This document shows, one piece after another, positions 9,033 to 19,639 of a DNA stretch of 64,000 nt. Origin of the DNA: Nitrososphaeraceae archaeon (lineage in GTDB: Archaea; Thermoproteota; Nitrososphaeria; Nitrososphaerales; Nitrososphaeraceae); contig JALDRC010000005.1 of NCBI GenBank assembly GCA_031316115.1, positions 124,001-188,000 of the forward strand. Reading direction: 5' to 3'. Under the pieces are notes generated by a model. The model ran no database searches. It was given only the letters and a program-made list of their open reading frames with translations, and had not been told where the DNA came from. Numbering within the stretch: position 1 is the first letter of the stretch; every line of letters starts with the position of its first letter. Both the position numbers and the translations under genes were made by a program.

Positions 9033-9986
9033 TTAATTACATCCAAGACCTATCGCTAGATTATTAATATTAGTTTTCATCTTGTCTATATAAGAAATAT
9101 TGTTTTCCTGTTCTACTTTATCTATTCCTTCTATAGGACTAAGAACAAGAACATTCCCGTTGGGGATTTCTGAAGCAAGTATCTCTGCCAATCTGGGATC
9201 TCTTAAGTCTTCTGAATAAATAGTACTAATATTGAGATTTTTGGCAAGAGATATTATTTTACTGATCTGTTGTGGTAAAATTTCTCCTTCTGGAGATAAA
9301 CCTTGAACTGAATATTGTGTTAACCCATATCTATTTGCAAGATATTGAAAAGCCTCATGAAATGATATAAATTCATTTAATTTACAATCAGAAATAGATT
9401 TTTTTATGTTATAATCTAATAGATCTAATTGTTCTACAAATCGTTCTGTATTTTGTTTATAATAATCTGAATTTGCTGGATCCAATTTAATCAAATATGA
9501 GCTTATTGATTTGGAGATATTTTTGGCTATAATTGGGTCTAACCAAATATGAGGATCAAAACTAGATTTTACATTTGTTGATTCTTTATCTTCCTGTTGT
9601 AATTCTATCAAATGAACTCCATCACTAACATCAACTAACTTGGATTTATCAACACGATCTTTTAGCCAAGAATCAAAACCAATACCATTATATATAATTA
9701 AATCGGCATTTTGAAGTTGAGAAATTTTTTGAGGACTAGGTTCCCAATCATGTGGTTCAACTCCAAATGGTATAAGAGTAGTTAAATCGATCTTATCTCC
9801 ACCCACTGCTTTGGTAAATTCATATAGTGGATAAAATGATGTCACTACTTGAAGTCTTGTATGGTTATCGGGATTTGTAATTATGCTTTCTTTTTGTAAA
9901 TCAAGGCTAGAAAACGAGGGATGAGGAATAACAAGACATACAGATAGAAATGTTAAGGATATTTGAAGAATAAAGAATTTATTCAT
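9033..9986 (-). CDS. ZnuA-like zinc/manganese-binding lipoprotein or secreted protein
   Basis: This 317-residue protein is a cluster A-I metal-binding protein of an ABC importer. An N-terminal hydrophobic signal segment (1-22) is followed by the metal ligands His79 (PHDWEPSP), His146 (DPHIWLDP) and His210 (SFHEAFQY), and an acidic fourth ligand region at YSEDLRDPRLAE. The family captures Zn or Mn outside the membrane. The His-rich loop common in zinc-specific ZnuA is short here, so Mn or Zn cannot be decided. No ATPase or permease gene lies next to it, so the importer must be encoded elsewhere or is absent. Confidence 0.88.
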   Translation of the reverse strand: MNKFFILQISLTFLSVCLVIPHPSFSSLDLQKESIITNPDNHTRLQVVTSFYPLYEFTKAVGGDKIDLTTLIPFGVEPHDWEPSPQKISQLQNADLIIYNGIGFDSWLKDRVDKSKLVDVSDGVHLIELQQEDKESTNVKSSFDPHIWLDPIIAKNISKSISSYLIKLDPANSDYYKQNTERFVEQLDLLDYNIKKSISDCKLNEFISFHEAFQYLANRYGLTQYSVQGLSPEGEILPQQISKIISLAKNLNISTIYSEDLRDPRLAEILASEIPNGNVLVLSPIEGIDKVEQENNISYIDKMKTNINNLAIGLGCN

Positions 9987-13346: not shown

Positions 13347-16346
13347 TTAGCCATTCAAATGAAGAGGGTCTTGTTGCTCCATTGTAAGCATATCTGTGTA
13401 GTATTCTGGTAGATTGTAGACCCATCCAGGATATGGATTGGGAATAGCGAGTACCCCCTGGCCTCCTGTACCATCCAATGCCATTGTGTCATCATCACTT
13501 TCATAAGTTGATGATATCGAAGGATTATTGTCTTCTGTAAGCAATATTCTTCCTGCTATTTTAGCATCAGAACCGTCACCATCGTTATTAGGATCGGGGT
13601 CCACAACTGTCAAAGCATTTGAAAATTTGCTGGCTACGTATGCATAGTATGGATAGACTTTATCACGATCTTGTGGGGATACCTGGCTGAGGTCTTTAAA
13701 TCCAAAGTTTGCACCGTGACATCCTGGATCACATGGAAGATGAGCTACAACTTCATCTGTATTTGGACTGTCAGGATCTGTGTTAACTATAGTGATATTT
13801 GCAGTTAGAGTATTTGCAGTAACCATGAATTTACCAGTGGGATCAACAGGTGTTTGTATTGGCAACGCAGCATAGTCTCCATCTGGAGAAGGCTCAAGTA
13901 GATTTATGTTTTTCAGCAACTCACCAGTTTCCAAATTTACGACACTTATGGTGCTATCTAGAAGATTTGCTACATAGTATTTATCTCCCTGCGGTCTAAT
14001 GGCTGTAGCTATAGGTACGGCGCCAGTAGAAGTATCCTTTCCGGTGGTGGAATCAATTGTTCTCTGTATTGTGTCTGAAGCAAAGTCATAGATTGTAGAA
14101 TCTGCAGTTAAGGCATTTGGTGTTACCATTTTCGATCCATCCGCACTGATCCAATGACCATGAGGATGTGTTGGATCTTGACCTGATTTCTGCATTGGAA
14201 TAATTCTTAGCAAATCTAGTAGACCATCAGAGAGTTCTAGTTCAGCTACCCCTTGTTCTCCATTTAATGCAACATAGGCTAAATCAGTCAGTGGGTTAGT
14301 TATAACATGTGAGGGTGCATCTCCAACATTGAATACATCGATAAATTCACCTGTTTCTCTATCAAATACTGCAAGTCGTTGGTCAAACCACATTGTTTGG
14401 TATATAACATTTTGATCTTTATCAGTCCACATGTTGTGAGGATGATTCATATTTATTTCAGGAAGAGATACTTTTCTTTCTATCTCCCATGTTCCAGTAT
14501 TTATTCTTGTTGCAGTTCCAGGTTTTGACTTACCCTCCGTTATTTCAAACTGAGTATCTACCCATACTTCACCTAATCCTGGTATTTTAGGGTCAAATAA
14601 TTTTCCAGTCAGATCCTCTTCAGTATTTAGTGCTGTCAGGTTCACAATAGTATTTCCACCCAAGGTCACATTTACAGGAGGAAGTTCTGTAATGTATGTT
14701 GGTTGTGTATAGTCTTTCCAATTGTGTATGTTAGTAACTTTGAAAAATGTTTTCACTAGTGAAGTGAATATACCAAAGGTAGGATCAGTTGTGCTTGGTT
14801 GTGTATTGAGTACTACTCCGTTGGCTAGTTGTAGCTGTTCTCCTACATCATAAGCAGGACTACCATTTGGATTAGTAGTTTGTGGATCATCTACCAAGGC
14901 ACCTGCAAACATGTATGGATGTACTTTACATGTGAAAACATACAAGCCTGGGTCCTCAAGTTTTACTATCGCACCTCCTTGGTAGCCAGTTATTTGATCA
15001 AATGGCATGTTAGCTGCTCCCTTAGGCCACAGCAGACTTGTAACTGTATGAACTGTATTTGTATCAGTCATAACAAAGTGAGCTGTACCTCCTGGATTGA
15101 TAATTCCAAACGATCCGCCTAAGTGAAGCTGTGGAGCTGCACTGTCTAAATTTGCTACATTTCTGAACCACGTACCTGGCTCATCAGTTATTCCGAAAGT
15201 CAGGAAATTACCTTGTGTAGCTGTAGATGGAGAAGCTTGGTCATATGGAGAAGCTCCAGCAACACTCTGAGTATTGCTGTTTTTAGCACCCACATTAAAT
15301 ATTCCCATCATTCCTGCCTCCATGTGTGCGAAAACATGACAATGATATTGCCAATGTCCTGCTCCCACAAATTGGCCAGCTTTAACTATAAAGTCATGTG
15401 AATCTTCTGGATGTATTGTCTTTACATCTATGATGTCACTTGTGCCTGGATCTAGCCATCTGTGCGCGTGTAAGTGGAATGTATGGTCGTGACCTGATCC
15501 TAGGACATGGAATTGAACTAGATCTCCTAAATCTGAACCTAGAGTAGGGTTAGTCCATAATGGGGTCTGTTTATGATTCTCATCTATTTCCATACCCCAA
15601 AAAGTTGAACCAACCATAAACAATACAAATTGTTTTTTAATATCATCAGGATTTATTTTCTGTATTTCTCCATCTACTAGACCCTTTTCTAGTCCTGGGT
15701 AGTCATAAGTACCAGAGTTTGGATGTACGATAATTGCACCAAATAGACCCAATTCTCTAGTAAAATCGTCTGCAGAGTATTCAATACTTCCCACTTCATC
15801 TGGTTTTATTGAGTCTACCTTTACTTCATTATTTTCTAAAATACTTTTTAGAATCAGAGTGTCTCCTTTATTTATCTCTATACTTGGTCCTGGAATTGTA
15901 GCATCAACAGAATATCTATCTGTTAGATCAGTTGGACCGTTTTTATCTATGGCTATATGTTTTACCATTTTATAAGCATATTGACCATTTTGTAATCGTT
16001 CTATTTTTACGGTCACTTGATGTTTTTTGGAATCTTTACCATAGTCATAGTTACCATTGTCATAGTAACCATTACCAGAGTACATATCGTCATAGTTACC
16101 TTTTTCATAGTTACCATTATCATAGTAATTATTATCATAGTTACCATTGTCATAATAGTCTTGATCATTATATTCTGAAGCTTCAGCAGTTTTGATTATC
16201 GGTTGACCAGAGGTATCACTATCAACAATTTTTTTGTCACTGTCAAGACTGTTATATAGAGCTGTAGGAAGCGTTGAAGTTAACAATATTGCTGCAAATA
16301 AGCAGAGTATTATGTTAGAACTAATTTGTTTCATTTTTCTTTGCAC
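13347..16346 (-). CDS. Multicopper oxidase-like/plastocyanin/beta-propeller fusion, secreted
   Basis: This is a 999-residue modular exported protein. A signal segment (9-30) precedes a Tyr/Asn/Gly/Asp repeat (64-103) and a shortened first cupredoxin domain (about 108-210) lacking the HxH copper ligands. A second domain has the full set HDHTFHLHAH (286-295) and HCHVFAHMEAGM (335-346), giving type 1 Cys336/His341/Met346 and two type 2/3 His pairs. A plastocyanin-like domain follows (His433, Cys473, His476, Met479). A YVTN/D1-type beta-propeller fills about 590-990. It probably handles electrons outside the membrane. It lies eight bases downstream of a paralogous gene, so the two form an operon. 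Confidence 0.85.
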   Translation of the reverse strand: MQRKMKQISSNIILCLFAAILLTSTLPTALYNSLDSDKKIVDSDTSGQPIIKTAEASEYNDQDYYDNGNYDNNYYDNGNYEKGNYDDMYSGNGYYDNGNYDYGKDSKKHQVTVKIERLQNGQYAYKMVKHIAIDKNGPTDLTDRYSVDATIPGPSIEINKGDTLILKSILENNEVKVDSIKPDEVGSIEYSADDFTRELGLFGAIIVHPNSGTYDYPGLEKGLVDGEIQKINPDDIKKQFVLFMVGSTFWGMEIDENHKQTPLWTNPTLGSDLGDLVQFHVLGSGHDHTFHLHAHRWLDPGTSDIIDVKTIHPEDSHDFIVKAGQFVGAGHWQYHCHVFAHMEAGMMGIFNVGAKNSNTQSVAGASPYDQASPSTATQGNFLTFGITDEPGTWFRNVANLDSAAPQLHLGGSFGIINPGGTAHFVMTDTNTVHTVTSLLWPKGAANMPFDQITGYQGGAIVKLEDPGLYVFTCKVHPYMFAGALVDDPQTTNPNGSPAYDVGEQLQLANGVVLNTQPSTTDPTFGIFTSLVKTFFKVTNIHNWKDYTQPTYITELPPVNVTLGGNTIVNLTALNTEEDLTGKLFDPKIPGLGEVWVDTQFEITEGKSKPGTATRINTGTWEIERKVSLPEINMNHPHNMWTDKDQNVIYQTMWFDQRLAVFDRETGEFIDVFNVGDAPSHVITNPLTDLAYVALNGEQGVAELELSDGLLDLLRIIPMQKSGQDPTHPHGHWISADGSKMVTPNALTADSTIYDFASDTIQRTIDSTTGKDTSTGAVPIATAIRPQGDKYYVANLLDSTISVVNLETGELLKNINLLEPSPDGDYAALPIQTPVDPTGKFMVTANTLTANITIVNTDPDSPNTDEVVAHLPCDPGCHGANFGFKDLSQVSPQDRDKVYPYYAYVASKFSNALTVVDPDPNNDGDGSDAKIAGRILLTEDNNPSISSTYESDDDTMALDGTGGQGVLAIPNPYPGWVYNLPEYYTDMLTMEQQDPLHLNG
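16055..16165 (-). repeat. Short in-frame tandem repeat coding for YDNGNY units
   Basis: Imperfect units based on 15 bases (CATAGTTACCATTGT and variants, plus-strand reading) are repeated about seven times. They encode the Tyr/Asn/Gly/Asp stretch at residues 64-103 of the large multicopper protein, just after the signal peptide. The unit count could vary between strains through slippage. Confidence 0.75.
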
Positions 16347-16354
16347 CTTCCTTC

Positions 16355-17428
16355 CTAAGCTTCTCCAGGTTGATCTCCTGGTATGCTTACTCCCATGCCA
16401 TCAACGATAAAGTCTCCAAACATTCCTGATTTGAAATGTGATTGAATTATATCTCGATATTGAGAATCTCCTTCGTCTGCCACAACAGTAAACACATGTA
16501 CTGCAAGAGGACCTATTTCTTTCTCGTTTATTATTTGATCAGTACCTGGTTTTAACCACTCATAACCGGACAACTGAAATACTGTAAAATCAGTTCCTAT
16601 ACCGAGTAGATGAAATCTTACTAAATCGTTATTGACAGCCTTGATTGTTGGATTTTCCCACAATGCTTTGTGATTATACTCACCATAATTATTTACTGCT
16701 TCATTACACCAAAAAGCATCATCAGATATCCAGCATATTACATCTTTAGAAATATCATCAATATTTACAATTTCAGGTTCTCCATTGATTAAGGCGTTGG
16801 TATAACCATCACCATCGTTGATAATTAAAGTTCCAAATAAACCACTCATTTCTAAACCGTTAGGATCCTTTCCTATAGTATTTAGACCTAGTGTGTGATC
16901 ATGATATGGCCATGTTCCAACTGTACCTGGTCCTGCAGTCCAACTATATGTTATTGTATCACCAGGATTTATTCCTTGATCTCCGACGTTGTTAGTTACT
17001 TGTAATGTTCCATCACTAGTTATAGGATAATGTATTCCATGAACATGAACACTTACCATAGCATTTTCTCCTCTAGATTGGATATTGTTTTCTAATGTAA
17101 GAGAAACGACATCTCCTTCATCGATTATAAGTGTAGGTCCTGGAATAGTGGGGCCTGGTTCGTAGTTATTGGTTAGATCTTTAATTGTATTTCCAGTATC
17201 CATATCGTTAACGAGATGTTGTACCATTTTGTAGGCATACAAATTTCCTCCCAATAGAGGTATTTCTTCTACAGCTAAGGTAATTTTGTGCAGAACTGGA
17301 ATATGATGAGGTTGTTTGTAGTATTGAGCAAATGCACTGTTTGATGAATGCATTGTATTTCCCAATCCAATAATTGACGCAATCAATAAAGTCAAAAATA
17401 TTGGATAAGTCTGCCGACTTTGTTTCAT
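16355..17428 (-). CDS. Two-domain multicopper oxidase-like protein with degenerate second domain
   Basis: The 357-residue exported protein has a signal peptide ending near residue 34 (SNSAFA). Domain 1 keeps both type 2/3 copper motifs, HVHGIH (128-133) and WPYHDH (173-178). In domain 2 the expected HxHxH position reads FTVFQLSGYEW, and the expected HCHxxxH reads YRDIIQSH (His331), so three His and the type 1 Cys are missing. On its own it could not build a normal trinuclear site. It is the first gene of a pair with the 999-residue protein (eight-base gap). That protein has the opposite defect, so the two may combine to make one copper centre (inference). Confidence 0.85.
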   Translation of the reverse strand: MKQSRQTYPIFLTLLIASIIGLGNTMHSSNSAFAQYYKQPHHIPVLHKITLAVEEIPLLGGNLYAYKMVQHLVNDMDTGNTIKDLTNNYEPGPTIPGPTLIIDEGDVVSLTLENNIQSRGENAMVSVHVHGIHYPITSDGTLQVTNNVGDQGINPGDTITYSWTAGPGTVGTWPYHDHTLGLNTIGKDPNGLEMSGLFGTLIINDGDGYTNALINGEPEIVNIDDISKDVICWISDDAFWCNEAVNNYGEYNHKALWENPTIKAVNNDLVRFHLLGIGTDFTVFQLSGYEWLKPGTDQIINEKEIGPLAVHVFTVVADEGDSQYRDIIQSHFKSGMFGDFIVDGMGVSIPGDQPGEA

Positions 17429-18466: not shown

Positions 18467-19639
18467 GAGACTGGGTCATAATTCAGTTAGCAAATATTGT
18501 AATGTAAGCATTATTGTATTATCAATTTTTATGTTCCTAGTATGTATTTGATTGCCATAGGGTTATCACTGTCGGTCTTACAATTATAGTATACAAGTAT
18601 TTGGTATAGCAAGACTGATAGCATTACTATAGCACAAACCTTATCATATCCTCTAACAGGTACTGGATCTATCCTGAATGCCGATTTGATATGTCCTATC
18701 AAAGGTTCTATAGATGTACTTCTCAATGAGTAGATAGCCTGTCCAACATTAGATTCATAAAATTCTATCAATTTTATCCTGTCAGGAGATGTATTTTTAT
18801 ATCTTTGTACAGGACACACCAATCTAAATTCCATGCTATTACTGAGATCATACAGTTGATGATCGTCATATCCAGGATCTGCAGACATGAATAAGATTCT
18901 TTTAATTGTTGTAACAGGTAGACTTGCTGTCAATATACTGTACATCTGATTGTCAGATATGTTGGCAGTTGTAAAATCTGCAGCCAATGGTACTATAATA
19001 GAACCAATAGTACTTGATATCATATGCAGTTTATATCCAAATATCCATCCCTTGGTATGACTGAATCCCCATCTTGCATCAGTATCAATACCAGAACGTG
19101 GTACTACTCCCTCTTCCATAGAGGATTTGTGCCATACAAAGCCTTTGGCTTTCATAAGAGTACTATCTGCTGAAAGAACAAATGGATCAATTATTTTATC
19201 ATGAACAAAAAGTTCACCCATTGTATTTATTCTATGTTTGATATCTCTAGAGAGCGTAACAAGACGTCTATCAAATGTTCTTCTACTAGGTATTCTTGAT
19301 AATCCACGTCCTTTCATTACCTTTTTGTTATACCATAGATCCATTGCAAGATATTCATGTAATGCTCTGTTAGAATCCAATCTTAACCATATACGTACTA
19401 TAAAGCATTTGAGAATAACAGTGGAAGAATACACATATGGTCTTCCAGGCCTTGGTTTATTATTATGTGGCCACCTAATCAAACCAATCAAATACAAAAT
19501 ACTAATTAGAATGGATGTAGATCTATTTTGTACTGCTAGTTTGTTGGTCTGTATATTGTTTCACTAAAACATCATATACCAATAAACTAGCTTTATTCGT
19601 TATGAAAATAGAATAATTATGACCCAGCCTCATTTATTT
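18459..19639 (-). mobile_element. Intact insertion sequence with TIRs and 8-bp target duplication
   Basis: The element proper is 18467-19631 (1165 bp). The left end GAGACTGGGTCATAATT (18467-18483) and the right end AATTATGACCCAGCCTC (19615-19631) are inverted repeats matching at 16 of 17 positions. The eight bases ATTTATTT occur on both sides (18459-18466 and 19632-19639), a direct target duplication, although the word is A/T-simple. One transposase ORF fills the element. A rotted second copy lies at 53935-55015. The family is IS4/IS5-like by the transposase; I cannot place it further. Confidence 0.85.
18529..19497 (-). CDS. DDE transposase, IS4/IS5 type
   Basis: The 322-residue transposase has a DDE_Tnp_1-type core. 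The first catalytic Asp lies in VLSADSTLMKAKG, the second in MSADPGYDDHQL and the Glu in TSIEPLIGHIKSAFR. The N-terminal region with RPGRPYVYSS and RIPSRRTFDRRL looks like the DNA-binding part. The start is TTG at 19497; reading upstream in frame there is a stop about 28 codons earlier and no ATG. No frameshift or premature stop was seen, so the copy may be active. Confidence 0.88.
   Translation of the reverse strand: MYLIGLIRWPHNNKPRPGRPYVYSSTVILKCFIVRIWLRLDSNRALHEYLAMDLWYNKKVMKGRGLSRIPSRRTFDRRLVTLSRDIKHRINTMGELFVHDKIIDPFVLSADSTLMKAKGFVWHKSSMEEGVVPRSGIDTDARWGFSHTKGWIFGYKLHMISSTIGSIIVPLAADFTTANISDNQMYSILTASLPVTTIKRILFMSADPGYDDHQLYDLSNSMEFRLVCPVQRYKNTSPDRIKLIEFYESNVGQAIYSLRSTSIEPLIGHIKSAFRIDPVPVRGYDKVCAIVMLSVLLYQILVYYNCKTDSDNPMAIKYILGT

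Follow-up and report, generated by a model that had tools for sequence, protein, structure and literature searches.

Complementary copper ligands in a tandem gene pair of ammonia oxidisers point to a heteromeric two-domain multicopper oxidase

Division of the copper ligands between two adjoining genes

Type B two-domain multicopper oxidases form a ring of three identical chains, in which each trinuclear copper cluster draws on domain 1 of one chain and on domain 2 of its neighbour, and the type-1 copper lies in domain 2 (PMC13151041). Here, we analysed a stretch of 64,000 nucleotides (the window) from contig JALDRC010000005.1 of a Nitrososphaeraceae archaeon (assembly GCA_031316115.1, positions 124,001 to 188,000 of the forward strand). 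The genome, of 3.16 Mb, carries archaeal amoA, which together with its Nitrososphaeraceae relatives indicates an archaeon that oxidises ammonia. On the minus strand of the window lie two tandem genes, A and, downstream of it, B, which hold complementary sets of the ligands of such an oxidase. A preliminary description had proposed that the two proteins share one trinuclear site in a mixed oligomer, on the ground that the known site forms between neighbouring chains, as the literature cited above bears out. We found that this proposal is supported at the sequence and evolutionary level and appears structurally plausible, and it is highly probable that A and B are obligate subunits of one secreted, heteromeric type B enzyme with an inter-chain trinuclear site. 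The features of the locus, in window coordinates, are as follows.

16355-17428, minus strand: gene A, an open reading frame (ORF) of 357 residues encoding a two-domain multicopper oxidase chain; domain 1 carries the trinuclear ligands HVHG (residues 128-131) and HDH, within YHDH (residues 176-178); domain 2 is ligand-free, its laccase ligand positions reading FTVFQLSG (in FTVFQLSGYEW) and YRDIIQSH
16335-16354, minus strand: intergenic sequence from the stop of A to the likely ATG of B, containing the ribosome-binding-like stretch GGAAGGTG
13347-16346, minus strand: gene B, an ORF of 999 residues from GTG encoding an oxidase with a plastocyanin-like domain and a beta-propeller; domain 1 is shortened and ligand-free, with no HxH motif; domain 2 has all trinuclear and type-1 ligands, in HTFHLHAH (residues 288-295) and HCHVFAHMEAGM (residues 335-346)
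14880-15210, minus strand: about residues 380-489 of B, forming the plastocyanin-like domain, with type-1 ligands H433, C473, H476 and M479
13350-14600, minus strand: about residues 583-999 of B, forming a propeller of lactonase type with seven blades and a Pfam Lactonase match

Both ORFs and all the motifs quoted in the preliminary description were recovered, including the domain-1 ligands that it had assigned to A and the domain-2 ligands that it had assigned to B. Gene A matches Pfam Cu-oxidase_3 and aligns with two-domain laccases across both domains, and gene B aligns with domain 2 of those laccases (E about 1e-18); these alignments confirmed the ligand partition. Hydrophobic signal-like segments can be read at the N-termini of both proteins.

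The partition was tabulated in 28 A chains, 29 B chains and 20 intact relatives. Every A chain retained 4/4 of the domain-1 trinuclear His and 0/4 of those of domain 2, and the column of the type-1 Cys in A domain 2 was occupied by Asp (25/28) or Asn (3/28); judged by the alignment, this loss is a fixed substitution, unlike random drift. All 29 B chains kept the four domain-2 trinuclear His as well as the type-1 His, Cys, His and Met, and at the domain-1 trinuclear positions they held a His at one position only, in 6/29 chains (at most 1/4). The 20 intact relatives each hold all twelve ligands. The eight trinuclear His are thus split 4+4 between A and B with no exception in either set, a partition far beyond chance. 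With respect to the type B class, the type-1 ligands are found in the C-terminal cupredoxin domain only (complete in 29/29 B, the Cys missing from A), but neither chain carries both trinuclear sets; the pair together has the eight. The ligand-free domain 2 of A is itself conserved, with 57% identity within archaea and 44% between archaea and bacteria, which despite the loss of ligands would suit a structural role.

The plastocyanin-like domain and propeller named earlier for the larger partner were also borne out. H433, C473, H476 and M479 are invariant in 79 sequences, save one Met. In the propeller, H637, H680, H729, H731 and H877 are near-invariant (91-100% in 79 relatives) and might form a second metal site, which we note as a lead only.

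Distribution, linkage and expression of the pair

The same split pair was sought in related genomes and was found in two families, Nitrososphaeraceae and Nitrosomonadaceae. Among 70 Nitrososphaeraceae genomes, side-by-side A-B pairs occur in four genera, with an identical ligand partition in the alignments of each, and every A gene found adjoins a B. The window genome has a second A-B pair, on contig C1. In bacteria, where named genomes were searched with the A alignment in a pattern-limited scan, the pair is present in the ammonia oxidisers Nitrosomonas (including N. europaea, L118), Nitrosospira and Nitrosovibrio. A was detected in 72/125 Nitrosomonadaceae genomes, and all 72 have B; we looked for an A without its partner and met none in the 125. 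B lies directly downstream on the same strand for 77/80 A matches, and each of the remaining three is either a partial match or lies on a different contig from B. Across the genome collection we counted 49 adjacent pairs. Two unclassified Gammaproteobacteria (L110, L131) have the pair as well and gave no AmoA or AmoC match, in a search that also missed AmoA in the draft N. europaea genome. Within the reach of the scan, the pair and its relatives are confined almost wholly to ammonia and methane oxidisers, suggesting a task linked to copper-dependent monooxygenase metabolism. Two Nitrosomonas loci (L113, L143) carry two complete A-B pairs in tandem, from two distinct sub-clades.

The gap of eight bases given for the pair in the preliminary description holds for the GTG start of B. 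On sequence grounds, the likelier start is the ATG at 16334, which is preceded by the GGAAGGTG stretch; it gives a protein of 995 residues and a gap of 20 bases. This ribosome-binding-like sequence between A and B supports a single operon. A natural A-B fusion or read-through was considered and rejected, as A, stop and B lie in one frame at about one third of loci, which is the chance level. Further out in the window, the pair is preceded, about 1.1 kb upstream, by a DDE transposase gene (18529-19497), and on the opposite side a gene for a ZnuA-type metal-binding protein (9033-9986) lies about 3.4 kb past the end of B.

Expression data exist for what is probably the same pair. In Nitrosocosmicus franklandianus, NFRAN_2029-2030, which are listed as 'two copies' of MCO3, show some of the strongest induction of any genes in biofilm, and their reported neighbours are a ferredoxin gene and an ABM-domain gene (PMC12448741). 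In one genome of our collection (G007), the A-B pair adjoins ferredoxin and ABM-domain genes. Based on the two-gene arrangement and these neighbours, the pair probably corresponds to NFRAN_2029 and NFRAN_2030. MCO3 is described there as two copies of one oxidase type, and the accessible part of that report makes no mention of complementarity, a joint site or bacterial counterparts (PMC12448741). Phage infection of N. europaea raises two unnamed multicopper oxidase genes in step, by about 70-fold (log2 changes of 6.16 and 6.14; PMC13356812); their identity with the pair is unproven, and such near-equal induction would suit an operon like A-B.

These data bear on whether the pair is simply a tandem duplication in decay, functionless, in which complementary losses came about by chance. 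Each copy does lack one ligand set, and domain 1 of B is shortened. However, the partition is fixed in all archaeal and bacterial pairs, the remaining ligands never vary, the domains of A and B are conserved, and the archaeal homologues, as identified above, rank among the most up-regulated biofilm genes (PMC12448741). A functionless pair is hardly credible on this evidence, and chance or local decay is ruled out by the fixed ligand partition over so many pairs.

Origin and proposed working of the enzyme

Intact relatives of the pair are found in two groups. Nitrosopumilaceae have either a single chain of 1125-1215 residues with both ligand sets, the plastocyanin-like domain and the propeller (L147-L149) or, in L112 and L117, an intact two-domain oxidase that stands by itself. 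In methanotrophs, an intact two-domain oxidase gene is followed by a separate plastocyanin-propeller gene (L098, L102, L145). Since these close relatives hold every ligand on one chain, the split is derived. In addition to the A-B pair, many ammonia-oxidising bacteria have a separate, methanotroph-like plastocyanin-propeller gene of about 610-620 residues (e.g. the Nitrosomonadaceae gene G448:C1:110772-112505).

In trees rooted with actinobacterial small laccases, all A sequences fall into a single clade, as do all B sequences; both clades are nested among the intact relatives, and each divides into an archaeal and a bacterial half. The two clades stayed when the ligand columns and their neighbours were removed, with Shimodaira-Hasegawa-like approximate likelihood ratio (SH-aLRT) supports of 99 for A and 98 for B. 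Domain 2 alone gave 99 and 87, and domain 1 alone gave weaker values of 77 and 92. An artefact of the lost ligands themselves was thereby rejected, the topology being unchanged without the ligand columns and with the domains treed apart. The plastocyanin-propeller part of B gave a matching picture. Moreover, the distance matrices of A and B are correlated (r 0.93 overall, 0.96 in archaea, 0.89 in bacteria). Three archaeal loci (L084, L085, L086) have genes of about 640 residues with the plastocyanin-like domain and propeller only; they fall within the B clade and so appear to be B genes whose oxidase half was lost, and these genomes lack A as well. Taken together, the monophyly of A and of B, the intact relatives, the mirrored distances and the joint loss point to a probable single origin of the split, which was then maintained. 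These evolutionary results, namely the one origin, the matching trees and the relatives with an intact single chain, go beyond the preliminary description.

Most likely, the split arose once, through duplication of an intact two-domain oxidase and complementary ligand loss, with one copy carrying a C-terminal plastocyanin-propeller extension. The A-B operon would afterwards have been kept as a unit common to ammonia-oxidising archaea and bacteria, and transfer between the two lineages would be the natural reading of the distribution. We infer that A and B form a physical complex which, once loaded with copper, reduces O2. Because the ligand sets lie on separate chains, only A domain 1 beside B domain 2 can form the cluster, and a trimer made up of A alone, or of B alone, would lack half of the trinuclear site. 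The O2-reducing trinuclear cluster would sit between the four His of A domain 1 and the four His of B domain 2, fed by the type-1 copper of B domain 2. Read from the ligands, electrons may pass from the substrate to the copper of the plastocyanin-like domain of B, then to the type-1 copper, the trinuclear cluster and O2. The propeller is probably a substrate-binding or docking platform, and A domain 2 and B domain 1 may have been retained as structural domains. That this duplication-born, obligate two-subunit enzyme spread as a unit among archaeal and bacterial ammonia oxidisers because its substrate is a nitrogen or copper intermediate peculiar to the copper-dependent oxidation of ammonia is a possible but rather doubtful extension.

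The complex was modelled with AlphaFold2 from a Nitrosocosmicus locus (L099), with both genes in frame and the stop codon read as a residue. The model reached a predicted local distance difference test (pLDDT) score of 81 and a predicted template modelling (pTM) score of 0.79; an earlier model (L090, 11 rows) had given 66 and 0.64. The two halves account for about 46% and 39% of the modelled chain. Since undocked halves should score far lower, a pTM of 0.79 makes docking of A and B likely, and the model suggests it with fair confidence. Each half matched two-domain laccases in Foldseek (TMt about 0.75).

Several points weigh against a heteromeric enzyme. The AlphaFold2 input was one joined chain, and the pTM bears on docking and not on the meeting of the two His sets. 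No solved structure fitted the whole A:B arrangement well in Foldseek. Two kinds of subunit cannot alternate around a ring of three, which calls for a new type of stoichiometry; we infer the complex itself from sequence and model. Finally, a third B-type gene of the window genome, with domain-2 and type-1 ligands intact (G000:C14:41788-44622; L070:4558-7710), has no A gene within 4 kb.

The predicted nature of the complex leaves some room for a different division of labour, in which B would carry electrons by way of its type-1 and plastocyanin-like copper, and A, acting separately in copper binding or regulation, would use its four His as a mono- or dinuclear site. The type-1 Cys is gone from all 28 A chains, and the two type-1 sites on B could pass electrons without a trinuclear cluster. 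This reading nevertheless leaves unexplained why the trinuclear His of B domain 2 and A domain 1 are invariant across archaea and bacteria and why A and B have stayed adjacent, and we consider it unlikely. The orphan B on contig C14, together with several further Cu-oxidase_3 proteins in the genome, could instead mean that A or B completes its half-site with another cellular oxidase chain and that A-B is not the active assembly. Here the linkage and co-evolution of A and B stand in opposition, as does the window genome, in which no intact member of the family was found, and such a partner is very improbable. The orphan might borrow the A chain of the pair on contig C16 or on contig C1.

For the heteromeric enzyme, a three-fold ring of A and B would contain at most one complete trinuclear site per trimer. 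The assembly could be a trimer with a single site, either A2B or AB2, or it could pair A and B 1:1, with the plastocyanin-like domain of B filling a ring position.

If the two proteins do act as one enzyme, this multicopper oxidase would depend on the products of two genes for its catalytic cluster, for which we found no precedent in the literature searched; nor did that literature yield an earlier report of the complementarity of A and B. The pair would offer a clear example from nature of two copies degenerating in complementary ways around one active site, conserved in archaea as well as bacteria and with surviving intact relatives to compare it with. Recognising one enzyme would also correct the annotation of the two genes as two oxidases, either of which would look inactive if tested singly. 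Since the pair is common in ammonia-oxidising bacteria and probably strongly regulated, what it does in nitrifiers can be tested once it is viewed as one enzyme.

Comparison with known oxidases

In ceruloplasmin and three-domain laccases, the trinuclear site lies between the first and last cupredoxin domains, and the other domains lack trinuclear ligands. There, one chain gives both halves of the site, whereas in A:B the cupredoxin domains would number five and be spread over two chains; the A:B model as a whole does not superpose on these proteins. The clade III lactonase-type nitrous-oxide reductase (L-NosZ) was rejected as an identity for B, which scores 31.8 bits against an NCBIfam cut-off of 700.

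The Nitrosopumilaceae and methanotroph relatives resemble A/B in combining a two-domain oxidase, a plastocyanin-like domain and a propeller. They differ in keeping the twelve ligands on one oxidase chain and, in methanotrophs, in encoding the plastocyanin-propeller part as a separate gene. The described type B two-domain oxidases SLAC, Ssl1 and CjMCO share with A/B the half fold, the domain order, the type-1 copper in the C-terminal domain and trinuclear ligands that come partly from domain 1 and partly from domain 2. However, they are homotrimers in which each chain has both ligand sets, while those of A/B are on two chains, and B adds the plastocyanin-propeller extension. What appears to be new, as the sequences support, is a heteromeric form of the two-domain multicopper oxidases.

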